From Opitutales bacterium (GTDB taxonomy: Bacteria; Verrucomicrobiota; Verrucomicrobiia; Opitutales; UBA953): 34,103 nucleotides of DNA. The notes under the pieces were generated by a model that was given only the letters and a program-made list of their open reading frames with translations, had not been told where the DNA came from and ran no database searches. Positions within the stretch are counted from its first letter, which is position 1. Every line of letters begins with the position of its first letter. The translations under genes were made by a program, and so were the position numbers. The stretch is from NCBI GenBank assembly GCA_017935025.1, contig JAGBIL010000012.1, forward strand, positions 1 through 34,103, read 5' to 3'. Positions 12,871 through 33,419 of this stretch are shown here, piece after piece.

Positions 12871-15042
12871 ATGAAAAAAATTCTTTCTCTTCTCCTTGTT
12901 TGGGCGTCGGCGTACGCGGGAACGACCGCGTCGGCGCAAGATTCCGAATTTTCCTTTGCGGATACGCCGTTTGCGGCATTCGGAGCTCCCGCACAGTCCG
13001 CGCAAACGACCGACGTCGAAGTGCTCGGCGTGGCGGAAAGCGGCGGCGAGAACGATTCGGAGCGCTATTTTTCCGTGCTCCTTAAAATGACGATGCAGCC
13101 CGGCTGGCATCTTTACTGGAAAAATCCGGGCGAAGCCGGAATGCCGCTCAGCGTCGAGTGGAAGAGCGTTCCCGCAGGCATAACTCTCGCCGGATGGGAT
13201 TGGAGCACGCCGAAATATTACGAACTTCAAGGGCTCGCGAGCTACGTTTACGAAAACGTTGCCTACGTCCAAATCAATTTCTTCGTTCCGAAAAATTTCC
13301 CTGAGAAAAAACTCGCGCTCACGGGAACGGCGTCGTGGCTTGCGTGCGACGACAACGGCTGTTTCCCTCAGGACAAGGAAATTTCCGTCGAAATCGACCT
13401 CACGAAAAATTTCCGCGAAGCTAATTCTCCGGAATTTCTCGAGGCGCAAAAAGCGTTCCCGCTGGGTTCCGATCACTTTACGGCGACATTTTCGGAAAAG
13501 CCCGACGCGGTTGAAATTTCTTTGAAGCCGCGCGAAGGCGGCGGTGTGTTTCCCGCCGATTCCCGTTTCTTCCCGGAAAGCGAGAAATTTGAGGCGTCGG
13601 CGGCGACGGTCGTTCCCGTCGCGAAAAACGGTGCGTTAGTTTTCACGCTTCCGCTTCGCAAAGGCGAAAAAATTTCCGACGCAAGCGAACTTGCCGGCGT
13701 GCTCGTTGCGCCCGACGGGAACGCGGTCGCAATCTACGAAAACACGTTTTCTGCCGGAAACGCGCAGGCGGACGCGGAGGCGGGGATGACGGAAGAGCCT
13801 GCGGCTCCCGCTTCGGAATTTTCGTTTGATCTGGCATTTGTCGGTTTGCTCGCCCTCGCGTTCGCGGGCGGACTGATTTTGAACCTGATGCCCTGCGTTT
13901 TTCCGGTTCTCGGGCTGAAAATTATGCACTTCGTCGGCAAAGCGGGTTCGGACAAAAAGAAAATTGCGCGCCATGGTTTTGTTTTCGGTGCGGGCGTGCT
14001 GATTTCGTTCTGGATTCTCGCGGGAGCGCTGGCGGTTTTGCGCAGCGGCGGCGAACAGCTCGGCTGGGGCTTTCAGTTGCAGGAGCCGGGCTTCGTTTAC
14101 GGCATGATTTTGCTGATGCTTGTTTTCGGACTGTCGATGTCGGGCGTGTTTGAATTCGGCGTCGGAGCAACGAGCGTGGGCGGCTCGCTCACGGAAAAAT
14201 CCGGCTACGCAGGCTCGTTTTTCTCCGGCGTTTTGGCGGTGATTATCGCTACGCCGTGCGCGGCGCCGTTCCTCGCTCCCGCGCTCGGGAGCGCGCTGAC
14301 GTTGCCGCTCGTGCCGTCGTTTGCTCTGTTTACGGCAATTGCGGTGGGGCTTGCCGCGCCGTATGTGATTTTGTCCTGTGTTCCTGCGTTGCTGAAGTTT
14401 TTGCCGAAACCCGGCGCGTGGATGGAAACGTTTAAGCAGGCGATGGCCTTTTTGCTCTACGCGCCCGCGTTGTATTTCGTCTGGGTGCTGATGGGGCAGG
14501 TGGAAGATGCGTTTGCGCAACGCGATTTGTTGCTCTCGCTCTCCGTGGTCGCGCTCGCGTGCTGGATTTACGGGAAATGGGCTACGCCGTGGCGTTCCCG
14601 TTTTGCGCGCGTTGCGGGAACGCTCGTCGCCGTGGTGCTTTTCGTGGGAACGGTGTTTTACGCGTTGAATTTGCTTTACGGGAAAAAGTCCGAAGGCTGG
14701 GTTGCGTGGTCGCCCGAAGCGCAGGCGGAAGCGTTGGAAGACGGAAAAATCGTTTACATCGATTTTACGGCGCGTTGGTGTGCGACTTGCCAAGTCAACA
14801 AGCGCGTTTACGATGATCCCGTGCTGAAAAAAGAACTTTCGGATGCCGACGTGGTGAAAATGCGTGCCGATTGGACGAACAAAAATGCGACTATCGCAAA
14901 CGAGTTGAGCAAATACGGCCGCGCTGCCGTTCCCGTGAACGTTTTCCTCAAAGAGGGCAAGGAGCCCGTCATTCTCGGTGAACTCTTTTCCGGCCCCGGA
15001 ACCGTTTCAGCCGGATTGCAGGAAATTTCCGCAGACAAGTAA
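12871..15042 (+). CDS. dsbD: Protein-disulfide reductase DsbD (ScsB-like, with N-terminal DsbD-alpha-type domain)
   Basis: DsbD carries electrons from cytoplasmic thioredoxin across the inner membrane to periplasmic disulfide isomerases and to cytochrome c maturation. The 723-residue product starts with a signal peptide (MKKILSLLLVWASAYAG, cleavage near ASA/QDS). A periplasmic domain follows with the cysteine pair in WLACDDNGCFP. The membrane domain has about eight helices and the two conserved cysteine motifs LMPCVFPVLGLK and IATPCAAPFLAPALG. A C-terminal thioredoxin domain carries the active site DFTARWCATCQVNK (near residue 637). All three cysteine pairs are present, so the electron relay looks complete. 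The N-terminal domain resembles the ScsB/DUF255-free type rather than E. coli DsbD-alpha. It follows the GxxExxY gene by 46 bases and contains at least ten GGGAACG-type motifs. Confidence 0.93.
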   Translation: MKKILSLLLVWASAYAGTTASAQDSEFSFADTPFAAFGAPAQSAQTTDVEVLGVAESGGENDSERYFSVLLKMTMQPGWHLYWKNPGEAGMPLSVEWKSVPAGITLAGWDWSTPKYYELQGLASYVYENVAYVQINFFVPKNFPEKKLALTGTASWLACDDNGCFPQDKEISVEIDLTKNFREANSPEFLEAQKAFPLGSDHFTATFSEKPDAVEISLKPREGGGVFPADSRFFPESEKFEASAATVVPVAKNGALVFTLPLRKGEKISDASELAGVLVAPDGNAVAIYENTFSAGNAQADAEAGMTEEPAAPASEFSFDLAFVGLLALAFAGGLILNLMPCVFPVLGLKIMHFVGKAGSDKKKIARHGFVFGAGVLISFWILAGALAVLRSGGEQLGWGFQLQEPGFVYGMILLMLVFGLSMSGVFEFGVGATSVGGSLTEKSGYAGSFFSGVLAVIIATPCAAPFLAPALGSALTLPLVPSFALFTAIAVGLAAPYVILSCVPALLKFLPKPGAWMETFKQAMAFLLYAPALYFVWVLMGQVEDAFAQRDLLLSLSVVALACWIYGKWATPWRSRFARVAGTLVAVVLFVGTVFYALNLLYGKKSEGWVAWSPEAQAEALEDGKIVYIDFTARWCATCQVNKRVYDDPVLKKELSDADVVKMRADWTNKNATIANELSKYGRAAVPVNVFLKEGKEPVILGELFSGPGTVSAGLQEISADK

Positions 15043-15185
15043 GGCAAGAATGTTCCCTTTATTCGGCGTTTATAGGTCGGGATTAATTGAAATCTGCCAC
15101 GTCTAATTTCCACTAATCTCGCTTATTCCCTTGAACGAAAAGGGTATTTTTGTGAAAATCCCCCTCATTCCCCAAACATTTTCCT

Positions 15186-18100
15186 ATGAGCCCTAATTTT
15201 TTTGAAAAACGTTCCCGCCGAGGGTTTTCGTTGGTCGTATCGCTGGTGATGATGGCATTGATGCTGATGATTGCCATTACACTCGTTTCGTTTGTTTATG
15301 TGCAAGCGCGCCTGACGGAAAGCAAGTTGAAGCGCTCTCAGGCACAGATTAATGCTATCAGCGGGATGCGTGTCGCGTTGGGACAACTTCAACTTCTGAC
15401 GGGCGACGACCAGCGCGTTACTGCGACGGCGGATCTCTTCGGCGAGGCAGAAAACAGCTCTTTGCCCGCCGGCGAAGCTTTTAACGGAAAACGTTTTTGG
15501 ACCGGCGTCTGGGCGACGGGCGGTTTGGACAAAACAAAGATTCGCGACTGGAGCATTTATTCTCCGGACAGGAAACCGTTCCTCGGATGGCTCGTTTCCG
15601 ATTACGACGAAAACAAGGAAGTTTACGCACCGAACGAAAGCCCGGTGAATCGGAACTCCGCTGCGCAGTCCAATGCTACACTACTCAAAGTCGCGCAGAG
15701 CGAATTTCGTGTGGATGACGAAAAAATTGATGTCGTTACGCTTGTCGGCAAAGGATCTTTGGGGGCAAATCGCGATGCGGCGGACGAGCTTTCTTTCAAC
15801 GAACGCGAAGTAAAAGTGCGCCGCGTCCCGCTGATGAAATACTCGGCGGCATCGAACGAGGAAATCCGCCCGATTACGGGCTCATTTGCTTATTGGGTCG
15901 GCGACGAAGGCGTGAAGGCTCGTGTAAATATTCCGGACGCGACAGACGAAAAATTCCTTCAGAAACCGGATTGGAATCGCCGTTATAACATTGTAGCCCA
16001 GCGCAACGGCGTTTCGCTTGTCGAAGGGCTGGAGCGCTTTGAATCATGGTGGGAAAAAGACGTGGAAGCCGCGAACACGGCATCCGCGACTCGCTTGGGC
16101 TACGTTTCCAACGCGGGAACGCTTCCGGTTTACGTTGAAGCTCTCGGCGGGAACGCTGCCGAAATAAAGGAAGGTGCGCGCAGGCTCTTCCACGATGTTT
16201 CCTTCGTTTCTCAAGGGATTTTCACCGACACCTACAACGGCGGCTTGAAAACCGACCTTTCCCTGGCGTTTGAAATGCCTTGGTTTAGCGAAGGTTCATG
16301 GAAAAAAGGTTTCCGCGATATCAAGCAATTCCACGGGAGCGGCGAAAAGAACGATCTGAACTTGCTCAGCAAATTCAAAGTTCCCGGCGATGAAATATGG
16401 TGGACGACACAGCCGGACGACGGGCTCGGCTATCTTTACGAAATCACGACCGGGGAAACAACGCGCAACGGGAACAATAACGTTGATTATCTGCGCGGAC
16501 CGACTTGGGACCTCGTACGAAATTACTACCGCCTTTACAAGCGCGAAGACGAACAGAAAGGTTTCCGCGGACTCAAGCCGCGTGAAAAAGACTCTTGGAT
16601 TGCGGTCGGCAGTAAACCGTACTCCTACCTTGCAGGGGCGGAAAACGACCAAAACCGCGGGAGTACTCTTGGCGGGTATTTCGGTCCGAAGGGAAATTAC
16701 GCGCTCATCTCCGCCAGACACACGCTGAAGTACTGGAACAGTCGCGGCGCTCTTCTTCCCGAATTTCACGGAAAAGACCGGAAAATGACCAGCGACGGTC
16801 GAGGCTACGATTTTCCGCTGATTATCCCGCAATCGATGCGTATTGCGCCGATTGTGCGCCGCATGGTCATCCGCTGCTCGATTATCATGAATCAGGACAC
16901 GGCGGCGCTTTGCTTTGACCCGATTTTCACGATTCACAATCCGTATAACGTACCGATGGAGTTTTACGGCTTTGGCGGGTATTGGACAAAATTTTATCCG
17001 TTCCATTTCCGCCTGAAGCGAACCGATACGGACGAAGACGGAAAGGCGAAAAACTGGCCGGGCACAAGCAGTTCCATTTTGGATTGCAACTTCCTCAGTA
17101 TTATGGGGCAAAACTCAGGAGACATTGTTTGCACGGCGCGTGTTTTAGCGGGAACGGACGATGTAAACAAAGCGTCGAGCGGAACTATTCGTCTGGAACC
17201 GGGCGAAGTCAAAGTCGTGTTCCCGACATCTTCCGCACTCACGAACTCCGGACTCGCCAACGGCAACATGGTCATTTCCATCGGGGATTTTGATTATGAA
17301 GAAAAGGGCGCGGCGGCGATCCGTTTGCCGGGTATTAATTTGAGCCAGCTCTCGCAGGGTGGAACGCAGGAAGCGCTGAACTTTGAAATTGATTACGGTC
17401 CGTTTGAAAGCGTCCCGAACACGAATTCGCTCTACAACGACTTGGACCAGGTCGCGTTCAATCTTTACTACCCGATTGCCTCAACGGGAGAAAATCTGGA
17501 AACGCGAAACGGTGTCCAGCGTATTTGGCGGCGCCCGATGGACCTCGTCGATATTTCCGACGAAAATCTTACGCAGGTGATTGCCTTCCGACGATTCCTC
17601 CAGCCGGACGGAGGCTGGCGCAACAACGTCGCAACCGGTCAGCAAACGGGCGGAACCGGAGTTCTTAATTCCGAAAAAACGTTTTTCGCCTACATCGACG
17701 TTTTCAACCAAACGTCAAAGGCATCTCCGTTGGTCGGTCCGCTCGTCACGAATCCGCGTGCGTGGGTGGTGGACCCGCGCGCGTGGGACGCAAACATGAA
17801 GGAGCGCAATGTCGCACTCGGTTGGAAAAAGACAATCGAGACGGATTCCGGCATCAGCCCGGTGCAGTATTCCTCTAAAAAAGGCTTCTGGGGCGATGGT
17901 CTCGGGCAAGGCGAAGGTCAGACGAATATTGTTTTATTTGAAATTCCGACTGCGCCGTTGCTTTCGCTCGGGCAGCTTCAGCACGTGGAATGTTCCGTTC
18001 TCGACACGGAGCCGGGCTACGTTATCGGAAATTCCTACCCGAACATAGGAATTGAAGATTTGAGCGAAATCTTTTTCTGGCCGGAAGAAGGCTATATGCG

Positions 18101-19265
18101 AGACGGCGCTCACGAGCGCGTGTCCAATCTGCATTCTCCGCAACCGCGCGCCGATACGCCGTTTGCCGCAAACATTAATCTGTTTGACCGCTACTTCTTC
18201 TCCGGGATCAACTTCGGGAAGGCGGATTCCTCACAGGAAAATGATATTGATGCGTTTGTCGAAAAGGTTTTCTCCGCCGACGAAAAAGTTTCTCCGTTCC
18301 CGAACAAGCGTGTCGGGCTGATTCGCGATTTCGGCAGCCGCAAGGAAGCGGACGTGCGGAAGGATTTTTACGATCCCGAAAAAGTTGCGCGCAATCTGCT
18401 TCTCAACGGCTCTTTCAACATCAACTCAACGAGCGTCGAGGCGTGGGTCGCCGTGCTTTCCGGCTTGCAGGGGAAAATGTTGCTCGTCGACGGCAAGTTT
18501 AAGGAAATTTCGGAAACGCCGTTTGCCCGCTTCATTTCTCTGATCGGAAAATCCGTTGGCGGTTTCGGGTCTGCCGCCGATAACGCCGGCGACGACGGGA
18601 ACGGCTGGCGCTGGTATGTGGAAGCGAACGAAGACGAAATTCGCAAGCTCGCCGAATCCATGGTCGAGCAGGTCAAAAAACGCGGTCCGTTCATGTCGAT
18701 GGGCGATTTCGTCAACCGCCGTCTCGCCAAGGGCAACAACGGTCAAGCCGGAGCTCTGCAGGCTGCGATTGACGATTCGAAAATCAACAGGAGCCGTGCC
18801 GGGAGTTTCGGCGATACCGGAGCGAGCAATCCGGACACATCGCGCTACCCGAATCTTTTCTCTACGGGTGAAAAAACCGACAAGAAGGGCGTTCCCGGCT
18901 ACGTTACGCAAGGTGACATCCTCGCAAACGTCGGTTCTGCGTTCTCGGCGCGTTCGGATACGTTCACGATCCGCGCTTACGGCGATATTTCCGGGGTTAC
19001 GGGAACGCCGGAAGCTCGTGCATGGTGCGAAGCCGTCGTTCAGCGTGTTCCCGAATTTTTCGTTCCGCAGGAAGATGAAAACGAGGAAATGATCGATAGT
19101 GTAAAATTCTTGGAAAACTACCGAGATCGTCAACCCGACGGGCAACCGAAAAACCACGTTCTCGAAAAATGGGAACGCAACGAGAAACTTTCCCCGGTAA
19201 ACGCGCTTTTCGGGCGACGCTACAAGATTATTTCGTTCCGTTGGCTTTCGCAGGACGAAATCTAA
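15186..19265 (+). CDS. Verru_Chthon cassette protein A-like, pseudopilin-type N-terminus
   Basis: This 1359-residue protein begins with a prepilin-like leader RRGFSLVVSLVMMALMLM, a hydrophobic helix and an amphipathic continuation (QARLTESKLKRSQAQINAI SGM). Residue +5 after the likely cleavage at G/F is Val rather than Glu, as in tip subunits such as GspK/PilX. The motif ALGQLQLLTGDDQRVTATADL and the following domain (KRFWTGVW, FLGWLVSD, YWVGDEGVKARVN) match what I know of the Verru_Chthon cassette protein A family. That family usually sits with smaller B, C and D pseudopilins. Here none of those flanks it. Upstream is dsbD (143 bases), downstream two paralogous exported proteins. It is probably exposed in the periplasm or outer surface as part of a type II/IV-like fibre, function unknown. 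Confidence 0.8.
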   Translation: MSPNFFEKRSRRGFSLVVSLVMMALMLMIAITLVSFVYVQARLTESKLKRSQAQINAISGMRVALGQLQLLTGDDQRVTATADLFGEAENSSLPAGEAFNGKRFWTGVWATGGLDKTKIRDWSIYSPDRKPFLGWLVSDYDENKEVYAPNESPVNRNSAAQSNATLLKVAQSEFRVDDEKIDVVTLVGKGSLGANRDAADELSFNEREVKVRRVPLMKYSAASNEEIRPITGSFAYWVGDEGVKARVNIPDATDEKFLQKPDWNRRYNIVAQRNGVSLVEGLERFESWWEKDVEAANTASATRLGYVSNAGTLPVYVEALGGNAAEIKEGARRLFHDVSFVSQGIFTDTYNGGLKTDLSLAFEMPWFSEGSWKKGFRDIKQFHGSGEKNDLNLLSKFKVPGDEIWWTTQPDDGLGYLYEITTGETTRNGNNNVDYLRGPTWDLVRNYYRLYKREDEQKGFRGLKPREKDSWIAVGSKPYSYLAGAENDQNRGSTLGGYFGPKGNYALISARHTLKYWNSRGALLPEFHGKDRKMTSDGRGYDFPLIIPQSMRIAPIVRRMVIRCSIIMNQDTAALCFDPIFTIHNPYNVPMEFYGFGGYWTKFYPFHFRLKRTDTDEDGKAKNWPGTSSSILDCNFLSIMGQNSGDIVCTARVLAGTDDVNKASSGTIRLEPGEVKVVFPTSSALTNSGLANGNMVISIGDFDYEEKGAAAIRLPGINLSQLSQGGTQEALNFEIDYGPFESVPNTNSLYNDLDQVAFNLYYPIASTGENLETRNGVQRIWRRPMDLVDISDENLTQVIAFRRFLQPDGGWRNNVATGQQTGGTGVLNSEKTFFAYIDVFNQTSKASPLVGPLVTNPRAWVVDPRAWDANMKERNVALGWKKTIETDSGISPVQYSSKKGFWGDGLGQGEGQTNIVLFEIPTAPLLSLGQLQHVECSVLDTEPGYVIGNSYPNIGIEDLSEIFFWPEEGYMRDGAHERVSNLHSPQPRADTPFAANINLFDRYFFSGINFGKADSSQENDIDAFVEKVFSADEKVSPFPNKRVGLIRDFGSRKEADVRKDFYDPEKVARNLLLNGSFNINSTSVEAWVAVLSGLQGKMLLVDGKFKEISETPFARFISLIGKSVGGFGSAADNAGDDGNGWRWYVEANEDEIRKLAESMVEQVKKRGPFMSMGDFVNRRLAKGNNGQAGALQAAIDDSKINRSRAGSFGDTGASNPDTSRYPNLFSTGEKTDKKGVPGYVTQGDILANVGSAFSARSDTFTIRAYGDISGVTGTPEARAWCEAVVQRVPEFFVPQEDENEEMIDSVKFLENYRDRQPDGQPKNHVLEKWERNEKLSPVNALFGRRYKIISFRWLSQDEI

Positions 19266-19278
19266 GTCAATGAATATT

Positions 19279-19320
19279 GGATAACGGATAATGTGAAAAA
19301 TTCTCATTATCCGATTATCC
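19279..19320. repeat. Palindromic intergenic element, GGATAACGGATAATG
   Basis: GGATAACGGATAATG (19279-19293) pairs with CATTATCCGATTATCC (19305-19320) across an 11-base loop, with a single bulged A. It lies between the cassette A-like gene and the next exported protein. No T run follows immediately, although T-rich sequence appears ten bases later. It may act as a transcription attenuator or processing hairpin, or be a member of a dispersed repeat family. Confidence 0.55.
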
Positions 19321-19350
19321 GCTAATGTTTTTTTTCTGATTTTTTTTTTT

Positions 19351-20184
19351 ATGAAATACTTCAAATACTTGATTATCGGGTTGCTCGGTGTGCTTTCTGC
19401 GGTAACAGCGGAAGCGCAGGCGCGTCGCGGCCTCGCTCCCGTAGCGGAAACGGATACGGTAACGTTTCGTTGCGCGTATTGGGAAAAACCGGCAAATGCT
19501 CCTCAGCTTTTCGTCAAAGAAGGGCGGGATTACGTCTATCTCAATGTTCTGAAAATGGCGTTTGCCCGTCCTTACAAGTATCGTGGTGCCTTGCCGATTC
19601 CGGTTTTCCGCAAAGCAACGCCGGAAGAAGTCGCTCAACGCAAGGCGGAAGGCGTGAAGGCAGCGGACTTGGAGTATGTGCCGCTACTCGCCATCAACCC
19701 GCGCGGTATGAAGGACATCGGTGTCATTTTCCTGCCGGGAGCGTTGGAACGGAAGACAGAAGATACCCAACTTGTTTTCGACTACAGCGAAAAGGCGTTC
19801 CCGTACGGATCCGTTCGAGTGCTCAATTTTTCCGGACGCGCGTTGTTGGGACGGTTGATTCCGAAAGACGATGAAAAAAAAGGCGAAAACTTTCGTCTGA
19901 AAAATCGCGAGGCATTTCTTTCCAAACCTTTTGATGACGAACGTCAAATTTACGAAATTCAGCTCGCTGCCGTCGTAAATAAAAAACCGATGAAAGTCTA
20001 TTCGTCCGCCGCAGCGTTTTACAAAACCAACCGTGTCCTGCTTTTCATCGTTCCCGCAGACAGCAAGTCGGCAAAAGATCCGAACGGTATTCCGCAGTTG
20101 GACTTCCGCATGATTAAGGACCAACGTCCGCTGATTCCGCCGAAGCCCGAAAACGCGCCTGCGTCCAAGCCTGCCGCCCGCTAA
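19351..20184 (+). CDS. Exported protein of unknown function, RCAYWEKP paralogue 1
   Basis: A signal peptide (MKYFKYLIIGLLGVLSAV, cleavage probably after AEA at about residue 22) leads a 277-residue protein. The mature part begins with a domain sharing many blocks with the next gene. These are TVTFRCAYWEKPANA, a PRGMKDIGVIFLP block (CGMDNLAAVILP in the paralogue), KAFPYGSVRVLNFSG (QSFPRGSIKIVNWSG in the paralogue), and a late NRVLLFIV block. It ends in a proline/alanine-rich tail. I do not recognise a named family. The location directly after the cassette A-like gene suggests a role in the same envelope structure. The start ATG 19351 follows a T-rich tract without a Shine-Dalgarno sequence. 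Confidence 0.7.
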   Translation: MKYFKYLIIGLLGVLSAVTAEAQARRGLAPVAETDTVTFRCAYWEKPANAPQLFVKEGRDYVYLNVLKMAFARPYKYRGALPIPVFRKATPEEVAQRKAEGVKAADLEYVPLLAINPRGMKDIGVIFLPGALERKTEDTQLVFDYSEKAFPYGSVRVLNFSGRALLGRLIPKDDEKKGENFRLKNREAFLSKPFDDERQIYEIQLAAVVNKKPMKVYSSAAAFYKTNRVLLFIVPADSKSAKDPNGIPQLDFRMIKDQRPLIPPKPENAPASKPAAR

Positions 20185-20230
20185 TTTTCACTTCTGATTT
20201 TACCCCGTTTAAACTTCAACACCAACGCCC

Positions 20231-21187
20231 ATGAATAAACGCCTCCAACTTGCGGCCGCTCTTTGCTGTTCCGTGATTTTATCCGTCGCGTGCTCGACTA
20301 AGCCCGCGGCGCCCGAAAAACCCGTTCCCGTGGTAACGGTCACGTCCGTCCAGGCAAAACCGACGCCCGCACCGAAAGCGGAAACACCGAAACCTGCGCC
20401 GAGCGCGGAAAAACCGAGCGTTCCCGCGCCGAAACAAAAGGCGGACAATGCGAAAAAAGCTCCTCCTGCACCGCCTCCGCCGAAGAAAGAAGACGTAGCC
20501 CCGCAGAAAAAAGCGGAACCGCCCAAGCCTGCTCCCGCACCGGAAAAAGTGGAGAAAAAAGAACCGCTCCCGCCGCCCGCAAAAACGATTAAATTCCGTT
20601 GCGCGTATTGGGAAAAACCGGACAACGCTTACGACATTTACGTTCGTCAAAACGGAAAATTCCAGCGTTGCCAGCTCTTCGAACTCGTCTTTTCGCAGAC
20701 GATGACTCCGGAGATCGATTCGAACGGCACCGTTACAATCTATCGAAAAGCGGACGGCGATTATCTCCCGATTTTCTCCATCGACCCGTGCGGTATGGAT
20801 AATCTCGCCGCCGTGATTTTGCCGAAATTCAATCCCGATAGCCCGAACGGTGCCTACGTTCAGCTTCTTGATCTCGATGAACAGTCTTTCCCGAGAGGTT
20901 CGATTAAAATCGTAAATTGGTCCGGAAAAGACATCAACGGAGACCTCTTGTTCCGTGAATCCGAAGAGAAGCAACATTTTACTTTGCGATACGGAGAATT
21001 TTACGTCTCGGATGAACTTTCCTGCAATCGCGACATCTGTAATATCCGCCTCTTTGATGAAAAAAATCCGGAACGCGCCGTGTACGAATCCGCATTCAGT
21101 CTCTTTAGAGGCAATCAAACTCTGCTTTTCATCTTGAAGAACGAAACCGAGAGCGGATTCGACTTCAAAATGAGCAAAGTTCGCTAA
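20231..21187 (+). CDS. Putative lipoprotein of unknown function, RCAYWEKP paralogue 2
   Basis: This 318-residue protein has a lipoprotein-type signal (MNKRLQLAAALCCSVILSVA followed by Cys21). A linker of about 90 residues is very rich in Pro, Lys and Ala and probably spans the peptidoglycan. The C-terminal domain (from about residue 118, TIKFRCAYWEKPDNA) is paralogous to the preceding protein. It keeps FPRGSIKIVNWSGKDINGDL and NQTLLFIL. At DNA level 25 bases are identical between the two genes at 19468-19492 and 20596-20620, more than the rest of the alignment would predict. The product is probably a membrane-anchored partner of the upstream protein and of the pseudopilin-like gene. No known function. 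Confidence 0.7.
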   Translation: MNKRLQLAAALCCSVILSVACSTKPAAPEKPVPVVTVTSVQAKPTPAPKAETPKPAPSAEKPSVPAPKQKADNAKKAPPAPPPPKKEDVAPQKKAEPPKPAPAPEKVEKKEPLPPPAKTIKFRCAYWEKPDNAYDIYVRQNGKFQRCQLFELVFSQTMTPEIDSNGTVTIYRKADGDYLPIFSIDPCGMDNLAAVILPKFNPDSPNGAYVQLLDLDEQSFPRGSIKIVNWSGKDINGDLLFRESEEKQHFTLRYGEFYVSDELSCNRDICNIRLFDEKNPERAVYESAFSLFRGNQTLLFILKNETESGFDFKMSKVR

Positions 21188-21199
21188 GATTTTTTCTTC

Positions 21200-22042
21200 G
21201 TGGCTTCATTTGAAAAAATAACGTCACGGCAAAATCCGCGCGTATTGCGGCTCGTGAAATTGCGGGAACGCGCGGCGCGGGTTGCCGAAGGTGTTTTTTT
21301 GCTGGAAGGTTTGCGCGAGCTTGAACGTGCGCTGGCAAGCGGGATTGTTTTTACGGAGTTCTACTTTTGCCCGGAACTCATCCGCAACCCGCTTGCGGAA
21401 AAAGTTTTTTCGGAAGTGAAAAATATTCTTCCCGTATCGGCGATTGTGGAGCTTTCGCGTCCGGCGTTTGAAAAAATTTCCTATCGGGAAAAACCGGAAG
21501 GCGTGCTCGCCGTTGCCGAAATGCGGAAACACGGCTTGGACTCGCTGTCCGTTCCCGCAGGCGCAGGAAAAGCTCCGTTGTTTCTCGTTGCGGAATCCAT
21601 CGAGAAACCCGGAAACCTCGGTGCGCTTTTGCGCACGGCGGATTCCGCCGGCTGTACCGCGCTGATTTGTTGCGGCGACGCGGGAACGGATGTTTACAAC
21701 CCGAATGCCGTGCGCGCTTCTCAGGGAACGCTCTTTTCCATGCCGCTTGCCGTTGCGGATGCTGCGTCCGTCTACGCTTGGCTCTCCGAACGCGGCGTGA
21801 CGATTTTTGCGACCTCTCCGGCGGCGGAAAAAACTTATTGGGATTGCGATTTCCGCGTTCCCGCCGCGATTTTGATGGGAACGGAAGCGACCGGACTGAC
21901 GGATTTTTGGCTCGGAAAAAATGAAGGCGAGGGCGTTGTTCCCGTTTCGATTCCGCAGGAAGGTTTGGCGGATTCACTCAACGTTTCCACGGCGGCGGCA
22001 ATTTGCCTGTTTGAAGCCGTACGGCAGAGAAAAGTTTCTTAA
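21200..22042 (+). CDS. TrmH/SpoU family RNA 2'-O-methyltransferase
   Basis: These SPOUT-fold enzymes transfer a methyl group from S-adenosylmethionine to ribose 2'-OH in rRNA or tRNA. The 280-residue protein starts at GTG 21200 with an N-terminal substrate-binding region (ITSRQNPRVLRLVKLRERAA, related to the L30e-like SpoU_sub_bind domain). The catalytic domain shows motif 1 EKPGNLGALLRTADSAG with the key Asn and Arg, motif 2 ILMGTEATGL, and motif 3 VSIPQEGLADSLNVSTAAAI. That combination resembles RlmB and related rRNA enzymes, but the exact RNA target cannot be told from sequence alone. It starts 12 bases after the preceding stop and ends 20 bases before a motif-built terminator. At least six uptake-like motifs occur within it. 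Confidence 0.88.
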   Translation: MASFEKITSRQNPRVLRLVKLRERAARVAEGVFLLEGLRELERALASGIVFTEFYFCPELIRNPLAEKVFSEVKNILPVSAIVELSRPAFEKISYREKPEGVLAVAEMRKHGLDSLSVPAGAGKAPLFLVAESIEKPGNLGALLRTADSAGCTALICCGDAGTDVYNPNAVRASQGTLFSMPLAVADAASVYAWLSERGVTIFATSPAAEKTYWDCDFRVPAAILMGTEATGLTDFWLGKNEGEGVVPVSIPQEGLADSLNVSTAAAICLFEAVRQRKVS

Positions 22043-22062
22043 ATAAGCCCTACCAAAATCAT

Positions 22063-22103
22063 AAAAAAAACGTTCCCGCCGATTTGACGGGAACGTTTTT
22101 TTT
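22063..22103. terminator. Bidirectional terminator built from an inverted pair of the CGTTCCCG motif
   Basis: AAAAAAAACGTTCCCG (22063-22078) pairs perfectly over 16 bp with CGGGAACGTTTTTTTT (22088-22103) around a nine-base loop. The stem core is exactly two inverted copies of the over-represented 8-mer, and the A and T runs give a U tail in either direction. It lies between two convergent genes (RNA methyltransferase and RRM protein), so it can serve both. Inverted uptake-sequence pairs used as terminators are well known in Neisseria and Haemophilus. Confidence 0.92.
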
Positions 22104-22115
22104 GGGAGAAGAATC

Positions 22116-22541
22116 TTAGCGTTCTTCGCCGCCTTCAAACGATCGGGTTCCGTTGCGACGCGGGCCGCCGAAATTACGGCGAGGACCGCGATTGAAACCG
22201 CCGCGATTTCCGCCGCTGAAGCCTCCGCGCTGGGAGTTCCCGCCGAAACGCGGACGAAAACCGCCGTTCCCGCGACGCGCAGGAGGCTGGTCTTCGCGCG
22301 GACGCGCAACATTGACTTTGAGCGGACGCCCTTGAAATTCACGTCCTTCGGTGTTTTCGATCGCTTTTTGCGCATCTTCCGCCGTTGCCATAACGACAAA
22401 CGCAAAACCGCGCGCACGTCCCGTGAACTTATCGCGAAGAACTTCCACGGACTCAACCGTGCCGAATTGCCCGAAGTAGGCAGTGAGGTCATCTTCCGTG
22501 GTCGCCCAGGCAAGATTTCCTACGAATAACTTATTATCCAT
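22116..22541 (-). CDS. RRM-type RNA-binding protein with Gly/Arg-rich tail
   Basis: The 141-residue protein has one RNA recognition motif at residues 1-80 with RNP2 LFVGNL (5-10) and RNP1 RGFAFVVM (about 44-51), each with the expected aromatic residues for stacking on RNA bases. The tail is rich in Gly, Arg, Asn and Phe (RGNGGFRPRFGGN and similar RGG-like repeats). This plan matches the Rbp-type proteins of cyanobacteria and other bacteria, often linked to cold response or RNA chaperone activity; the role here is inferred. It converges on the methyltransferase gene and shares its terminator. Confidence 0.9.
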   Translation of the reverse strand: MDNKLFVGNLAWATTEDDLTAYFGQFGTVESVEVLRDKFTGRARGFAFVVMATAEDAQKAIENTEGREFQGRPLKVNVARPREDQPPARRGNGGFRPRFGGNSQRGGFSGGNRGGFNRGPRRNFGGPRRNGTRSFEGGEER

Positions 22542-22736
22542 TTAATTGATTTCTATCTATCGTCTTCAATCGCTTTGCGCCCGTTCCCGACCGTCGGGTT
22601 TCAAAATCGACGATTTCATATTCCATCGATTTTCCGGCGCGCACCGCGAAATTCCCATAAGGGAAAGACGGCGCATAATTCTCTGCTTTCGCCGAAATTT
22701 ATCAAGCCGCAAATGAGCAAAATTTCGGCGAATCGT

Positions 22737-24185
22737 TTACTTCATCGCCAGCGCCATTTTGTTGGCGGTGATGACGCCGTAATTGATGGTGCCGAGCCAG
22801 CCCGACATAATGATGCCGACCGAGCCCGCGTGGTAGAGACCGCGCACTTTTTCCGGCAACTCCATCGAAATTTTCAGGCCTTCAAACTTCGTGCCGAACG
22901 ACGTTCCGTCACGGTGGCGGACGTAGCGCCTGACGGTGCGCGGCGTGGCGGCTTCGACCCAATCGACCTTCGCGCGAATGTCCGGAATGTATTTTTCCAA
23001 ACCGGCGAAAGATTCTTCGATAATGCGTTTTTTCTCCGCTTCGTACTCCTCGGCGGAAAGATTTTCCCAATTAGAAAAACGCTGGTTAATCGACGTAACA
23101 ATCGCGTAGTGCGGGATTTTGCGTTGCGGGCGCGTGTCCGGATAGTAAACGGAGTAGGTGCGGGAAGTCGTGTGCAAATCGACGAGGTCGTCGCTGTCGA
23201 ACTTCGGCGCTTCCGAGGTGAAAACGAGGTCGCCGATGTGCGGAATCGTTTCGCCTTCGCGGATACCCATATAGACCTGGCAGGAGGAGGTGTTTACGCG
23301 GACGGCTTCGGATTCTGCAAGGAAATCGGCGGGAACGGTGCCGGGGTCGAGCATTTCTTCCACGGTGTTGCGGATGTTCGCGTTGGAAAGAACGGATTTA
23401 CAGGAAATTTCCGCAACTTCGCCGAAGCGCATATCGCGCACGCGAACACCGCGCACGACGGGAACGCCGTCGGCTCCGGCTTCGGTCAGAATTTTTTCCG
23501 CGAGGCAATTCCGGCGAATGTCGACACCGTTTTTATTGAGCTCTTCAGTCATTTTTTGAATGAGCAAATCCGTTCCGCCTTGGAAAATATAAACGCCCTT
23601 GCTCATGAAGTTGGAGAAAACGATTCCGTAGGTGATAGCGGGTTCGTTGAGTGTGGAGCCGTTTGCGTAGGCGATCGGCTCGAGGAGCAGGCGCCAAACG
23701 TCGGTGCGTCCGGGGAAAAATTCCTCGAAGAGTTCCCGCGTCGTACGTTTGTCGTTGTCGTAGTAATTCATCTGCGCAAGATGTTCGAAAAATCCGTGCA
23801 CGCGCTCTGCGGGAACGCCGAATTTTTCGATGAGAATGCGCGTGAAGTCTTCGCGGTCAAAAGTCGTTTGGATATTGAATTCCGGATTGATGAAGCGGAT
23901 GTCTTTGAGCTGGTGAATCGAGTCTGCGATTTCTTTGCTCCAGTATTTGCGGCAGGACTTGATCATGCCGTGCGGGAAACCGTGGAGCGAAATATCGAAA
24001 ATATGTCCGCCGGGACGTTTAAAATACGTCGCCAACCCGCCGAGCTGGTAGTGGTGTTCAAGGAGCAAAACCGAGTGCCCCGCCTTGGCGAGATAGTTCG
24101 CACCGGTAAGCCCGGCGAGACCGCTGCCGATGACGATCGCGTCGTAATATTTCTGAATGCCGAAAAGCGGATTTTTTGCGTCCAT
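22737..24185 (-). CDS. CrtI/CrtISO/RetSat-like FAD-dependent oxidoreductase
   Basis: The 482-residue product starts at ATG 24185 ([20 protein letters not shown]); an upstream extension is unconserved and hydrophobic. The dinucleotide-binding motif is [22 protein letters not shown] (starting about residue 15) followed by the acidic residue in LLLEHH and GGLATYF, as in phytoene desaturases, carotenoid isomerases and retinol saturases. Further family blocks are [16 protein letters not shown] and the C-terminal [17 protein letters not shown]. It probably acts on a polyene or isoprenoid lipid at the membrane. No other carotenoid gene is in the window, so the substrate is uncertain. The gene is monocistronic, with ruvB divergent on the other side. 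Confidence 0.85.
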
Positions 24186-24430
24186 TTGCGTCGTGAAGGA
24201 TGAAAATGTGAGAAAAACCAGACATTGGCACATATTCCAAACTGCCGCAAATTGAAATTTGCCGAACGCCGAGCCGGGAAAACCTATTTACACCGATTTC
24301 CCCGGATGATTATTCCTTCAAAATCTTTTTGTCTTTTCGTCTCGTGATAGACTGTTCGGAATTTGAACAAAAGGACGTTTCGCATTCCTTTTTCGGCGGG
24401 AACGCGCTATCTTTCTTTCAAAATTCTCCG

Positions 24431-25492
24431 ATGGCGAAGAAAAAAACAGAGCAAAACGGATACGCGGACGACGCGCCGCGCAGTTATTTTGAAGACGCGC
24501 TCGCGCGCAAGGATGCAACGCTGGATCAGGCGTTGCGCCCGCCGAATTTCGACGATTTTACCGGGCAACCGCGCACGATTGAGCGTCTTCGCGTGATGGT
24601 CGGCGCGGCGCGGCGGGAACGCCGGGCGCTCGACCACATTTTGCTTCACGGTCCGCCGGGTTTGGGCAAAACGACGCTCGCGCTGATTCTCGCCGAGGAA
24701 ATGGGTACGAAAGTGAAAATCACGTCCGGTCCCGTCATCGAAAAACCCGCCGATCTCGCCGGGTTGCTCACCGCGCTCGAAGAGGGCGAAATCCTTTTCA
24801 TCGACGAAATTCACCGCATTTCCAAAGTCGTGGAAGAATTCCTCTACTCGGCGATGGAAGATTTTCGCATCGACATCATGATCGACCAGGGACCGAACGC
24901 GCGTAGCGTGCGCCTGTCGATCCCGCGCTTTACGCTGGTCGGCGCGACGACGCGCACGGGACTGCTCACCGCGCCGATGCGTTCCCGCTTCACGCTCCAA
25001 ACGCGCCTCGATTATTACACGCACGAAGATTTGTTCAAAATCGTCAAACGCAACTGCGCAAAGCTCGGTATCGCGGCGGACGACGGCGGCGCCATGGAAA
25101 TTGCCCGCCGTGCGCGCGGCACGCCGCGTATCGTGAACAACCTCATCCGCTTTGCGCGCGACTACGCGCTTGAACGCGGGAACGGCGCCATTGACCAAAA
25201 AACCGCCGCCGCCGCGCTCGAATTGCTCGAAATCGATCGCCACGGCTTGGACGATATGGACAAACGCATTTTGCGCACGCTCGCTCTCAACTACAATGGC
25301 GGTCCTGTCGGGCTCGGCACCATCGGTGTCGCCGTCGGTGAAGATGAACACACGCTCGAAGAAGTCCACGAGCCGTACCTGATTCAGGAAGGCTATATCG
25401 CGCGCACGCCTCAAGGGCGCGTACTCACGGAAAAAGGCTGGGGCGTTTGCGGCGTGGAGCGCGAATTCGGCAAGCAGAGCACGCTATTTTAG
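24431..25492 (+). CDS. ruvB: Holliday junction branch-migration ATPase RuvB
   Basis: RuvB is the hexameric AAA+ motor that, with RuvA, moves Holliday junctions for resolution by RuvC. The start is ATG 24431 (MAKKKTEQNGYADDAP), since a 34-codon upstream extension is unconserved; the 353-residue length is typical. LRPPNFDDFTGQ is followed by Walker A HGPPGLGKTTLAL (about 74-81), Walker B ILFIDEIHRI (about 121-130), sensor VGATTRTGLLT, the arginine finger region APMRSRFTLQTRLDYY, and the C-terminal winged-helix domain with RGTPRIVNNLIRFARDYA and GPVGLGTIGVAVGED. All motifs are intact. It stands alone here, without ruvA or ruvC nearby. Confidence 0.96.
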   Translation: MAKKKTEQNGYADDAPRSYFEDALARKDATLDQALRPPNFDDFTGQPRTIERLRVMVGAARRERRALDHILLHGPPGLGKTTLALILAEEMGTKVKITSGPVIEKPADLAGLLTALEEGEILFIDEIHRISKVVEEFLYSAMEDFRIDIMIDQGPNARSVRLSIPRFTLVGATTRTGLLTAPMRSRFTLQTRLDYYTHEDLFKIVKRNCAKLGIAADDGGAMEIARRARGTPRIVNNLIRFARDYALERGNGAIDQKTAAAALELLEIDRHGLDDMDKRILRTLALNYNGGPVGLGTIGVAVGEDEHTLEEVHEPYLIQEGYIARTPQGRVLTEKGWGVCGVEREFGKQSTLF

Positions 25493-25494
25493 AC

Positions 25495-25867
25495 GGGAGG
25501 AAGCGACACTCCTGTCGCTTCCGGGAAACTTACGAAAAACAAATCAGCCCACGGGTAAACACGAATTCTTACGGATAGTTATTCTTTTACACAGAGCTTT
25601 TCTCTCATTTTGTTTTGCGTTAAAAGACTTCGCATGTCATTCGGAAGCGGCAAGATGCCGCTTCTCCCAAAGAGCGAAAGTTTTTTTATGGGAGAAGCGG
25701 TTCTCTAAACCGCTTCCGTGGGATTTACGAAGTTTTTTTCTCCCACGGATGAACACGAATTCTCACGGATAATTTATTTTTTGTTATGAAAACGATATTA
25801 ATTTCCGAAATTAAATTGAGCGGAAAGCGTTCGCTTTTCCGGAAGCGACAGGAGTGTCGCTTCTCCC
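25495..25867. repeat. Cluster of REP-like hairpins and direct repeats filling the ruvB-hemX gap
   Basis: Four hairpins of one type occur, each GAAGCG(A/G)CA or GAAGCGGTT with its complement: 25499-25522, 25644-25664, 25694-25716 and 25841-25864. Most carry a GGGAG or CTCCC on one flank. The first and last are reverse complements over 23 of 24 bases and bracket the gap. Between them lie two direct copies of CCCACGG(G/A)T(A/G)AACACGAATTC at 25549-25578 and 25742-25771. No gene is seen in the gap. The elements could be REP/MITE-like sequences moved by a transposase elsewhere, or transcription-processing hairpins. Confidence 0.75.
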
Positions 25868-25883
25868 GAATTTAAAGTTTCCG

Positions 25884-26792
25884 ATGAACGAAATATTTGA
25901 AAACAGAGAACTTTTTGCGTGCGCCGCAGGCATTTTCCTTGCGGCGGCGGCGGTCGGATTGTTTTCGGCGCGACGGAGCGGCGGGAACGGCGCCGGGCGC
26001 GCCCGGCGCGTTGCGGAACTGTTTTTGGCGGCGGCGGCGTGGACGCTTTTGAGTTGCGCGCTCGGAGAACGCGGTTCGCGCGGCGGGCATTTGCCGGTTT
26101 CTAATATTTTCGAAATCTTTCAGGCGCTCGGTTGGTGTGCGGTGTTTTCGGCGGTGTTTTTGCGCGCGGTTTGGGCGTTGCGCGTTCCCGTGTTTTTTGC
26201 GACGGGAACGGCGGGCTTGCTTTGCGCACTCGGCTTCGCGAACGTGCGCGGCTGGGATATTTTGCCGGTCTCCGCCGATGCGTTTACGGGAACGCCGTGG
26301 ATCGGCGTTCACGCGGCGTTTGCCACAATCGGTTATGCGTGTTTTTCTGCGGCGGCGATGGTTTGGTGGATTTTTCTCCTGCAAAATTCGGCTCTGCGAA
26401 AACGCCGCACGCACCGTTTTTTTTCAAGGCTTCCGGATTTGTCTACGCTGGACAGAATTTCGACGCGGCTTTGCTCGGCGGGGCTGGTATTTTTCGGCGT
26501 CGGCGTGGCGGTCGGCGTCGCGGCACTTGCGGGAAATTTTACGCTGAGTTCGACGCTTGCGGTTTATAAAACCGGGCTTTCCGTGCTGATTTTCTTCGGC
26601 TTTGCCGGAGTGCGGATTTTGCGCGGACAAAATAAAATTTCCGCTTTAAAATTTGCGCGCGCGGGAACGGCGATTTTTGTCGCGGCGATTGTTTTGCTCG
26701 GAGGAATGGCGTGTCTGCGCGACGACAACGGCGCACATCCCGCCGCGATTATTTCGCACGGGGAAAAAACGGGTTCGGAGGTCGCGAAATGA
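25884..26792 (+). CDS. HemX/CcsA-like membrane protein of cytochrome c assembly
   Basis: The 302-residue product starts at ATG 25884, just after the repeats. It has about eight transmembrane helices (LFACAAGIFLAAAAVGLF, ALGWCAVFSAVFLRAVWAL, FATIGYACFSAAAMVWWIFL, SAGLVFFGVGVAVGVAAL and others). The sequence WIGVHAAFATIGYACF matches the conserved WxxxH region of the CcsA/CcmC/HemX superfamily, which handle haem on the periplasmic face. The last 4 bases overlap hemA (ATGA at 26789-26792), so the two are translationally coupled. A HemX-type regulator or haem-handling role fits that context, but CcsA of cytochrome c biogenesis System II is equally possible; a large ResB-like partner is not in the window. 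Confidence 0.82.
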   Translation: MNEIFENRELFACAAGIFLAAAAVGLFSARRSGGNGAGRARRVAELFLAAAAWTLLSCALGERGSRGGHLPVSNIFEIFQALGWCAVFSAVFLRAVWALRVPVFFATGTAGLLCALGFANVRGWDILPVSADAFTGTPWIGVHAAFATIGYACFSAAAMVWWIFLLQNSALRKRRTHRFFSRLPDLSTLDRISTRLCSAGLVFFGVGVAVGVAALAGNFTLSSTLAVYKTGLSVLIFFGFAGVRILRGQNKISALKFARAGTAIFVAAIVLLGGMACLRDDNGAHPAAIISHGEKTGSEVAK

Positions 26793-27787
26793 AGGTTTTT
26801 GCGCTTTCGTGCAATTTCCGGACGGCGGAGCTGTCCGTTTTGGAGCGGTTGTCTTGTTCGCGGGAACGCCTCGCAGAACTTTACGCGGAGGGCGCATTTG
26901 CCGGATTTCCGGAATGTGCGGTGCTTTCGACCTGCAACCGCGTGGAATTTTACGCTGCGGGAACGCAAATTTCCGCCGAAGCCGTCGCGGAAAAACTCGC
27001 CGATATTTTCGGCGTTTCCGCTGACGCAATTTTGGCGAATGCCGAAACTTTTTCCGATGCCGCCGCCGTGCGACACTTGTTTGAAGTCGCGGCGGGGCTG
27101 GATTCCCGCATGGTCGGCGAAGCGGAAATTCTCGGTCAGGTCAAACAGGCCTACGAGGCGGCGTTTGCGGCGGGAACGACCGGCGTGGTGCTGAATCGCA
27201 TTTTTCAAAAAAGTTTTCAGGCGGCGAAGTGGGCGAGGGCGAACACGGGCATTTCTCAAGGGCAAATCAGCGTGGGCAATGTCGCCGTGGAGCTCGCCGG
27301 ACGGATTTTCGGAGATTTGGGGCGGTGCGCGGTGCTCGTGGTGGGAACGGGCGAAGCGGGGCGGAAAACGGCGCAGTCGTTCGTCTCGCGCGGTGCGGGA
27401 AATGTCCTGGTGGCGAGCCGCAATTTTGAGCGTGCGCGCAGTTTTGCGGCGGAAATCGGTGCGGGAGCCGTCGAATTGGATTCGGTAGCGGCGCGTGCCG
27501 TGCACGCGGATGTCGTGGTCGGGTGTGCGAGCGTTTCCGAGCCGCTGATTTCGGAAAAAACGCTGCGGAGCGTGTTGCGTTCCCGTGGCGACCGACCGTT
27601 ATTTCTCATCGATTTGGGAATGCCGAGAAATTTTCCCGACGGCGTGGAATCCGACGATTTGTGGATTTACGGTTTGGCGGATTTGGCGGCGATTGCAAAC
27701 GAAAATCTTTCCGCACGGGAACGCGAAGCCGCGCTCTGCCGCGAAGAACTCTCCGCCCGCGCCGCACGCCTCTTTGAAAAACTTTAA
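26789..27787 (+). CDS. hemA: Glutamyl-tRNA reductase HemA, short form
   Basis: HemA reduces glutamyl-tRNA(Glu) to glutamate-1-semialdehyde, the first step of tetrapyrrole synthesis by the C5 route. ATG 26789 overlaps the preceding stop and begins MKVFALSCNFRTAELSVLERL; an in-frame extension upstream lies within the previous gene and is rejected. The catalytic cysteine is Cys49 in LSTCNRVEFY. Substrate-recognition SRMVGEAEILGQVKQAY and the NADPH-binding VLVVGTGEAGRKTAQ are present. At 332 residues it is about 90 shorter than the E. coli enzyme and ends soon after the NADPH domain in LSARAARLFEKL, so most of the C-terminal dimerisation domain is missing. Short HemA forms are known in the Chlamydiae-Verrucomicrobia group. 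Confidence 0.93.
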   Translation: MKVFALSCNFRTAELSVLERLSCSRERLAELYAEGAFAGFPECAVLSTCNRVEFYAAGTQISAEAVAEKLADIFGVSADAILANAETFSDAAAVRHLFEVAAGLDSRMVGEAEILGQVKQAYEAAFAAGTTGVVLNRIFQKSFQAAKWARANTGISQGQISVGNVAVELAGRIFGDLGRCAVLVVGTGEAGRKTAQSFVSRGAGNVLVASRNFERARSFAAEIGAGAVELDSVAARAVHADVVVGCASVSEPLISEKTLRSVLRSRGDRPLFLIDLGMPRNFPDGVESDDLWIYGLADLAAIANENLSAREREAALCREELSARAARLFEKL

Positions 27788-28110
27788 GCGCGCCGACGCT
27801 TCGGCAATCCCCGCTTCGCTTTTCTCGCGCCCTCACTCCGCTTTCTATTGCCGTCAAATCTTGCGGAGTAAACGCGCTCTAATCTCCGCAAGTCTGATTG
27901 AAATCACTGCGATTTTCCCACGTTCCCGCAAAACTTTGTGGTCGGCTCAAAAATCGCACCGCGTTCCCGCTTAAAATGCCCGTTTTCCGCTTTTCTCTTG
28001 AAAACCGTTTTTTTTTGTAACATCGGAGACACTCAAAAACGGGGCGTTTTTGTCGCGAAAATCGCCTACGCGTTTTTGAAAACAACATTAATCGCAAGCA
28101 AACAAAAATC
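27788..28110. other. Gene-free gap after hemA
   Basis: This 323-base stretch has no convincing gene; its short open frames lack start context and conserved wording. It holds two direct CGTTCCCG motifs (near 27923 and 27963) and an inverted repeat CTTGCGGAG / CTCCGCAAG at 27860-27868 and 27884-27892 with a 15-base loop and no T run. The right half turns AT-rich, marking the shift to the accessory genes that follow. Confidence 0.5.
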
Positions 28111-29196
28111 ATGTGTACGTCAAATCCGGAGAACTCTTCTGAAAACCCATCGCTCTATCGTTATATTTCTTTTGAAAAAGCTATCTCCCTGTTTACGAAT
28201 GGCTTTTATGTTCCAATCGCAAAATCGTTTGAGGATTTGAACGAATGCGAAATTAAGCACCTCCCGAATTATCTCGAGAAAGATATAGAAAGTCGGGTGG
28301 AAGATTGTTTCAAAAAAATAAAAGAATTACTGTGCAACACCTCAAATTCCATAAATTCTGCAAACTTAGCGGAGCACTACAAAGAGTGTTTTGGAGAAAT
28401 TTTCGACGCTACAGATGCCAAAGAGATTCCCTGTAGGTCTTGGGAGAGCATTTTCGGAATAATTTCATCTGCCGTTTCTGACTACGGGAAGACTCACACA
28501 ATTGCTAATTTCCCGAGAGAAAACATTAGATGTTGCGCTAGTGCATTTCGTATGCCGCAAAATGATGAGGAATGCAAAAGTAAGCTACGCAGACTATTCG
28601 AAAATTTGGCGAAAGAAGATCTTAAGGGAGCGTTAATTAGTTGTTGGACGAAAAATCCAAAGGAATCCTACGTTCTTTGGAGGTCATATGCAGAAAAGAA
28701 AGGGATACGAATAAAAACGAACAAAGAAAAATTAGAAAAATTCCTAAAGAGTAAATCTGCAGGAACGGGAGATTGGCCGGAAGATAAAAAGGATTTTTTC
28801 TTTTCCGGAGAGTTTAGTGTAAAATCTGAGGACGTCACTTATCTCACGGAGGACGACCTGAGAAAAGAGCTAGAAGCGAATTCTCTCAGAGATATTAAGA
28901 CCCGAAAAGAACTATTGGAAAAAGTGTCGTTTTTGAAATCTGATATTTACAGAAGCGAAGAAGAATTCCGTGTTCTCTTGTACGGAGACGCGTGGGAATC
29001 GGGAAAACTTACAGGAATTGTAAGTCCGCAAATTGGAGTTTCGTTCCCGTTAGGCGACAACCCTGGGGCGCTCTTGGATGAGATTATGCTCTCTCCGTTT
29101 TTATCCGAATTTGAGATAAAATCATACATGGAATTATTCACTAAACTCTTTCCCGGCGTGAAGCCTTGCCGGTCAAAAATTGAGATAAAAATCTGA
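28111..29196 (+). CDS. DUF2971 family protein
   Basis: This 361-residue cytoplasmic protein starts LYRYISFEKAISLFTNGFYV, the opening typical of DUF2971. It then has the block ALISCWTKNPKESYVLWRSYAEKKGIRIKT (about residues 170-199) with the family pattern CW...(M/L)W..Y and an ending SDIYRSEEEFRVLLY. Function is unknown; the family is often found in variable genomic regions. The base composition and codon use (many AAA, GAA, ATA, AGA) are AT-richer than ruvB or hemA, and only one uptake-like motif occurs (near 29043, towards the 3' end), which points to later acquisition. ATG 28111 is the first start after an AT-rich leader; a Shine-Dalgarno sequence is not obvious. The next gene follows after 44 bases. 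Confidence 0.78.
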   Translation: MCTSNPENSSENPSLYRYISFEKAISLFTNGFYVPIAKSFEDLNECEIKHLPNYLEKDIESRVEDCFKKIKELLCNTSNSINSANLAEHYKECFGEIFDATDAKEIPCRSWESIFGIISSAVSDYGKTHTIANFPRENIRCCASAFRMPQNDEECKSKLRRLFENLAKEDLKGALISCWTKNPKESYVLWRSYAEKKGIRIKTNKEKLEKFLKSKSAGTGDWPEDKKDFFFSGEFSVKSEDVTYLTEDDLRKELEANSLRDIKTRKELLEKVSFLKSDIYRSEEEFRVLLYGDAWESGKLTGIVSPQIGVSFPLGDNPGALLDEIMLSPFLSEFEIKSYMELFTKLFPGVKPCRSKIEIKI

Positions 29197-29240
29197 CTTT
29201 AAATTTAAACGAGAACCTCAACCAAAAAACAACAATCACC

Positions 29241-30371: not shown

Positions 30372-30642
30372 AAATCTTCCGTTAACTTCTTTTCCTTTGC
30401 GGTTAAATTTGTAGGTTGAGAGAACTGAAACATAGTTGCGATGTGAAAAGAAGTTCGCGGATGACTGAAATATTTTCGACTCATGATATCGGGAAAACGG
30501 TTAGAAATCGGCTTAAGGCGAGCTGAAAAGGGCGTGTTTTTGAGCCGATTTGTTTTTGTAAATAACTTCTCTTTGCGGGGAGGCGGGGACGGGAATATGC
30601 TTCCCGTCTCTTTAATTTCATTAAAATAAACTTTTTTCAGAT
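30372..30642. other. Gap before the Sel1 gene with two hairpins
   Basis: No gene is seen here. AAATCGGCT (30505-30513) pairs with AGCCGATTT (30543-30551) over a 29-base loop and is followed by GTTTTTG. GACGGGAA (30588-30595) pairs with TTCCCGTC (30601-30608) around TATGC, followed by TCTTT. The second is the better terminator candidate for transcription arriving from the SUMF1 gene, although it sits close to the Sel1 gene start. Confidence 0.45.
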
Positions 30643-33027: not shown

Positions 33028-33419
33028 GGAAAACGATAAAGAATGAGGAGAGAGGAATTAGGAATGAGAAGGCTAAACCTTTGCGGGGTTTGATGTGCTT
33101 TGCGAGAGTTTTTTGTTCCATTGCGCCGCGAGAGCGTCAGGGAGCAAAAATACGTCGTTCCCGCAGCGCGGTTTTGTTTGTCCTTATCCCCAAGCTCCGG
33201 AAGGAACGCTCCTCCGGCGCTTTGAATTTTCCCGTAAAAGAAAACAAAAAGGGACAGCCGGGACGGCGGTCCTCCATGACCGAATCCGTGAAATTTGTGT
33301 GAATCCGTGAGAGATTTTGTGTTCCGGCGGGGATAAACTTCCCGTGTTCCCGCCGGCTTCTCGATGTTGCGTTTCGCGGGGTTTTCGGCGATAAATGGAG
33401 CATTCGCGTTTTTTTTAAG
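33028..33419. other. Gene-free gap with dispersed repeats, upstream of ettA
   Basis: This 392-base gap begins with AATGAGGAGAGAGGAATTAG, related to the CCTCATTCCTCATT text at 2214. Further on is GGGACAGCCGGGACGGCGG with CCTCCATGACCG, resembling a degraded REP hairpin, then GAATCCGTGAAATTTGTG and GAATCCGTGAG, related to the CACGAAT repeats. CCGGCGGG (33324-33331) pairs with CCCGCCGG (33349-33356). An uptake-like motif is at about 33157. No gene is supported. Confidence 0.5.

Follow-up and report, generated by a model that had tools for sequence, protein, structure and literature searches.

Within the window, by which we mean the whole 34,103-nucleotide stretch analysed here, from the genome of a gut bacterium of the Opitutales (Verrucomicrobiota), two convergent genes meet tail to tail around a short inverted repeat. 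The stop codon of the plus-strand gene lies at 22040-22042 and that of the minus-strand gene at 22116, so that the repeat stands between two facing stop codons. The features of the locus, each with the evidence for it, are these:

21200-22042, plus strand: gene for a SpoU/TrmH-family RNA 2'-O-methyltransferase, the upstream transcription unit on this strand (Pfam PF00588, 1.7e-30; PF22435)
22063-22103, no single strand: predicted bidirectional intrinsic terminator with a perfect 16-bp stem and a 9-nt loop (sequence, fold, scan, conservation in G005, G003 and G007)
22063-22070, plus strand: A8 tract, the U8 tail of a minus-strand transcript (sequence)
22071-22078, plus strand: 5' arm, a copy of the motif CGTTCCCG (sequence, window motif count)
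22079-22087, plus strand: loop CCGATTTGA, not kept in G003 and G007 (sequence, congener comparison)
22088-22095, minus strand: 3' arm, an inverse copy of the motif, reading CGGGAACG on the plus strand (sequence, window motif count)
22096-22103, plus strand: T8 tract, the U8 tail of a plus-strand transcript (sequence)
22116-22541, minus strand: gene for an RRM-type RNA-binding protein, the upstream transcription unit on this strand (Pfam PF00076, 3.7e-23)

The original prediction had described a perfect 16-bp stem with the motif as its core and A8/T8 runs at its base, lying between convergent genes, and both its coordinates and its sequence proved exact. Folded as RNA (61 nt), the hairpin reaches -23.2 kcal/mol, compared with -10.8 +/- 2.6 kcal/mol for shuffles of the same 61-mer (z -4.7, with 0 of 200 as low), and it tops the list of terminator-like sites in a scan of 15001-34103. 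It combines the GC-rich stem, short loop, U tract and position after a stop codon that characterize intrinsic terminators. The symmetric A8 and T8 tracts fit termination of both transcripts.

The window contains 102 copies of the 8-bp word that forms the arms, CGTTCCCG, where shuffles contain 4.0. In the 2.03-Mb genome (G000) there are 5,434 copies, against 91 of the reversed control word; 2,708 are on one strand and 2,726 on the other, the density is about 2.7 copies per kb, and no 8-mer is more over-represented. Spacing is random (CV 0.92, tested for even spacing). For closer study we used a G000 sample of 834 kb, consisting of the window and 40 stretches of 20 kb, in which genes were called by a simple, codon-based home-made caller, so that some distances and contexts are approximate. 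Within the genes of this sample the word occurs 2.6 times per kb, in both orientations. In coding alignments between G000 and G003, 73.5% of its sites are identical, compared with 39% for words of the same composition. Over the 834 kb, its orientation covaries with GC skew (r -0.42) and with gene strand (r -0.33), and genes hold 1,061 antisense and 833 sense copies. The orientation correlations arise partly by construction, and a bias in replication direction may contribute.

Among the genomes compared, richness in the word is confined to members of the same genus, and other genera are at background. Six of the eight genus members, G000 included, carry about 5,190-6,550 copies; the other two are motif-poor, with 1,362 copies in G001 and 546 in G006. 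The closest named relatives at this locus are MAGs assigned to Opitutales/Verrucomicrobia, of which two came from the rectum of goat and sheep.

Because the word is so dense, inverted pairs are not rare by themselves. Genome-wide, at gaps of 2-20 nt, 143 pairs read CGTTCCCG..CGGGAACG and 41 read CGGGAACG..CGTTCCCG, where random placement, computed from the genome's word counts, gives about 69 per order; roughly half of the favoured-order pairs, mostly those in genes, therefore need no function. Pairs take up about 5% of all copies. The window has three CGTTCCCG..CGGGAACG pairs within 20 nt, two of them inside predicted genes (14593-14622 and 26183-26210) and of the chance type.

Inverted pairs had been predicted to be enriched 3' of genes, and across the genome sample the outcome was strongly positive in stop-codon proximity, tracts and gene context alike. 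Intergenic CGTTCCCG..CGGGAACG pairs number 36 in the 834 kb, where shifting yields 5.8 +/- 2.4 (never more than 14 in 1,000 shifts), and 4 have the opposite order, an excess of sixfold and an order bias of ninefold. Depending on the count, the intergenic total is 36-37. The neighbouring genes could be classified for 35 of these, giving 13 convergent and 22 codirectional contexts and not one divergent (chi-square p 3e-10 relative to intergenic bases). A same-strand stop codon lies upstream within 66 nt of 36 of the 37, at a median of 23 nt, and the mean fold is -24.5 kcal/mol. Pairs are enriched after genes, most of all between genes lying tail to tail, and prefer one order, the pattern of terminators built from inverted uptake words.

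The flanks of these pairs are equally distinctive. With a tract defined as six or more T or A among the ten bases next to the pair, T/A tracts accompany 33 of 37 intergenic pairs, compared with 1 of 13 pairs in genes and 0 of 14 in the opposite order. In codirectional contexts the downstream T tract (7.1 of 10) is longer than the upstream A tract (5.1), and in convergent contexts both are long (6.9 and 6.9). No A-rich flank was found at single copies of CGTTCCCG, which means that the tracts do not simply come along with a longer motif. Nor does an A-rich extension account for the order bias, both orders giving stems of the same pairs.

Strong post-stop terminators were also collected with a simple detector in five genomes. 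The word is present in 43 of 93 (46%) in G000, 29 of 58 in G003 and 7 of 19 in G001, in none of the 4 detected in the 127-kb sample of G006 and in none of the 8 detected in G008, a member of another genus. About half of the strong predicted terminators in this genus thus appear to be built from inverted CGTTCCCG.

Comparison with congeners separates what is kept from what changes. Both arms and both tracts of the SpoU-RRM hairpin are kept in G005, G003 and G007, and in the latter two the loop and flanks have changed. In G001, G004, G006 and other genera we found neither a hairpin of this kind following SpoU nor an RRM match beside it. Not every motif terminator is conserved, since several from G000 lacked a counterpart in the ortholog comparison with G003 or were matched to a paralogue; the minus-strand comparisons at L022 and L028, where this happened, were useless and were set aside.

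As a class, the pairs are in excess in all eight genus members. Favoured and opposite orders number 74/7 in G001, 185/98 in G002, 182/61 in G003, 175/83 in G004, 146/46 in G005, 15/0 in G006 and 134/36 in G007, with 0/0 in G008; arithmetic from word counts gives a random expectation of about 4 pairs in G001 and about 1 in G006. Seven of the eight species, among them G001 with its quarter of the single copies, hold about 60-90 pairs more than expected, and in G001 and G006 every one of the 18 pairs inspected carries T/A tracts and is terminator-like. Because pairs persist in two species where singles are few, termination can be treated as a role apart from whatever spreads the single copies. 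The SpoU and ComEC gene trees, which disagree in detail, place motif-poor G001 among motif-rich species, and loss of single copies rather than incomplete gain is likely in its case. The simplest account would be that in G001 and G006 single copies have eroded, or never accumulated, and terminators have been held by selection.

The two motif-poor congeners have other peculiarities. Both carry an extra full-length T2SSE-family ATPase (G001:C66:11190-12365 and G006:C75:8714-9889), of a kind that is also present in the other genera searched (G008-G011) and absent from the six motif-rich species. Several G006 stretches (L063-L066, L116-L120) contain clusters of an imperfect interspersed repeat around GGGTTGGTGGTG, with 94 copies of GTTGGTGG in 127 kb, in both orientations; many of the clusters lie at the ends of contigs, and inside them a distance of about 18 nt between copies is common.

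We are confident in reading 22063-22103 as a bidirectional rho-independent terminator whose stem appears to have been recruited from a genome-wide word. We propose a model where some other process spreads the 8-bp word to its present density and two copies that come to lie face to face would offer a ready-made stem. Selection for termination would then keep both arms, add the A/T tracts and prefer the order CGTTCCCG..CGGGAACG. RNA polymerase leaving either convergent gene would transcribe the GC-cored hairpin, then U8, and release. Intergenic pairs in general very probably act as intrinsic terminators, retained for that function irrespective of what the scattered word does, because they are enriched after stop codons, carry tracts, are in excess in congeners and persist where singles are few. 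The claim that the hairpin is an intrinsic terminator gains support from its fold, from pair enrichment after stops and from the repetition of the pair excess in congeners; that transcription actually ends at these predicted sites, and how efficiently, we infer from sequence.

Chance and composition alone would let some inverted pairs adjoin at 2.7 copies per kb and fold into hairpins without function. For the surplus-free half of the genome-wide pairs, and for two of the three in the window, this is explanation enough, but chance does not account for the intergenic excess, the order, the tracts or the stop-codon context. The sixfold excess and ninefold bias contradict it, tracts and stop-codon context are near-universal outside genes and missing inside them, and 74 and 15 pairs in G001 and G006 stand far above the few expected; as a general explanation it is scarcely credible. 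It is also very unlikely that the hairpins are a dispersed palindromic element (REP- or MITE-like) inserted downstream of genes and not stems built on the spot from separate motif copies. A subset does have a longer inner stem in common (CGTTCCCGCGAGGA..TCCTCGCGGGAACG type), as such an element would, but the longer inner word CGTTCCCGCGAGGA has only 11 occurrences in the sample, loops of 2-17 nt are mostly unrelated, the flanks are unrelated, and at the SpoU-RRM locus the arms stayed through a turnover of loop and flanks.

The role of the scattered word is a separate matter. The hairpin had been taken to support the motif as an uptake-type sequence and to reveal a second function; the terminator function stands, and the support for uptake is weaker, since any abundant word could be recruited in this way. 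Like DUS and USS, CGTTCCCG is extremely over-represented, occurs in both orientations, lies mostly in genes and is restricted to one clade. An uptake word fits because of this abundance and genus restriction, the conservation of the word and the T4P, ComEC and DprA genes. Every genus member has ComEC, PilB/PilT-type ATPases and DprA; the first two also occur in relatives without the word, and such competence genes are found in well-known species that lack it too. The random spacing of the word does not favour uptake either, and a PF12836 search recognised no ComEA among genus members; its one strong match per member falls in an open frame of about 770-830 aa that is probably Tex and was not taken to indicate competence. 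Single copies may have been spread by sequence-biased DNA uptake, a weaker claim than termination; filing CGTTCCCG as a DUS or USS is not justified, and we call it a candidate uptake word. It is tempting to speculate that the genus arrived at a DNA-uptake language of its own, separately from Neisseriaceae and Pasteurellaceae, and built about half of its strong terminators from it, and that the drive stopped in G001 and G006, where singles erode and terminators stay by selection. We hold this account tentatively, at a little under an even chance.

A serious competitor, which we likewise place somewhat short of even, leaves the terminators as they are and makes the scattered word a non-uptake site (Chi-like, methylation or nucleoid-protein) or the secondary offshoot of a word that began as a terminator stem. 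It would suit the relatively better retention of pairs than singles in G001 and G006, the correlation of orientation with GC skew, partly built in as this is, and the Tex-like nature of the only strong PF12836 matches, with no ComEA-type protein recognised. The word is, however, far denser than Chi-type sites, termination cannot explain its frequency in genes in both orientations or its conservation there, and ComEC, PilB/PilT-type ATPases and DprA are found throughout the genus. Two words considered as dialects elsewhere were rejected: CGTACCCG in G008 is concentrated in one 20-kb stretch and one orientation, GAGGGTGC in G011 likewise, and both are repeats, probably inside a long gene. The first of the stretches concerned (G008:C2:1-20000, L070) has 31 copies of CGTACCCG and the second (G011:C1:1-20000, L073) 31 of GAGGGTGC, with all or almost all pointing the same way; each is probably part of a very long repetitive gene.

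Inverted uptake words serving as terminators have been reported from only two families of Proteobacteria, and a 2026 survey covering over 40 million predicted terminators (PMC13020248) gives the same picture. The likeness first drawn to the Neisseria and Haemophilus cases is supported by the enrichment of our pairs after stop codons. In Neisseriaceae, DUS pairs (GCCGTCTGAA..TTCAGACGGC) similarly form a rho-independent terminator stem from an inverted abundant word (PMC1852404, PMC2397512, PMC3630211) and are concentrated between convergent genes, in a preferred order and with A/T tracts. The share of terminators is alike, 54-57% of the best post-gene terminators in Neisseria holding DUS (PMC1852404) against 46% here, as found by different detectors. 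CGTTCCCG is an unrelated motif from a different phylum, a candidate uptake word, and its single copies lack an A-rich extension, whereas in Neisseria and Haemophilus such an extension could yield T tails passively, as Kingsford et al. cautioned (PMC1852404). The Pasteurellaceae USS (AAGTGCGGT) is another abundant word recruited into terminators, held by 17-29% of them in most of the family, the standard USS users (PMC1852404). CGTTCCCG is unrelated to it, lacks its long AT-rich 3' extension and is about three times denser, with 5,434 copies in 2.03 Mb against 1,471 USS in 1.83 Mb of H. influenzae (PMC1852404). Comparable extreme density is seen in the kingDUS of Kingella oralis, 5,918 copies in 2.4 Mb and called the highest of any DUS (PMC3630211), although CGTTCCCG is a shorter word, an 8-mer to which chance contributes a little more, and its uptake role is only a candidate one.

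A literature search for CGTTCCCG itself returned only unrelated primers and similar sequences, and a full-text search of open-licence papers turned up neither a description of an uptake word in Verrucomicrobia nor a paper about natural transformation in Opitutales. The terminator trick is already known; what is new is the motif and the phylum, and a candidate uptake word is now flagged in Verrucomicrobiota, for which that search found none. Being the third of its kind, and involving an unrelated word and another phylum, it suggests that any word at very high density may be recruited into terminators. The species with few singles and many pairs allow the terminator and scattered-word roles to be told apart and, because pairs stay where singles are rare, termination alone can hold the word in place.
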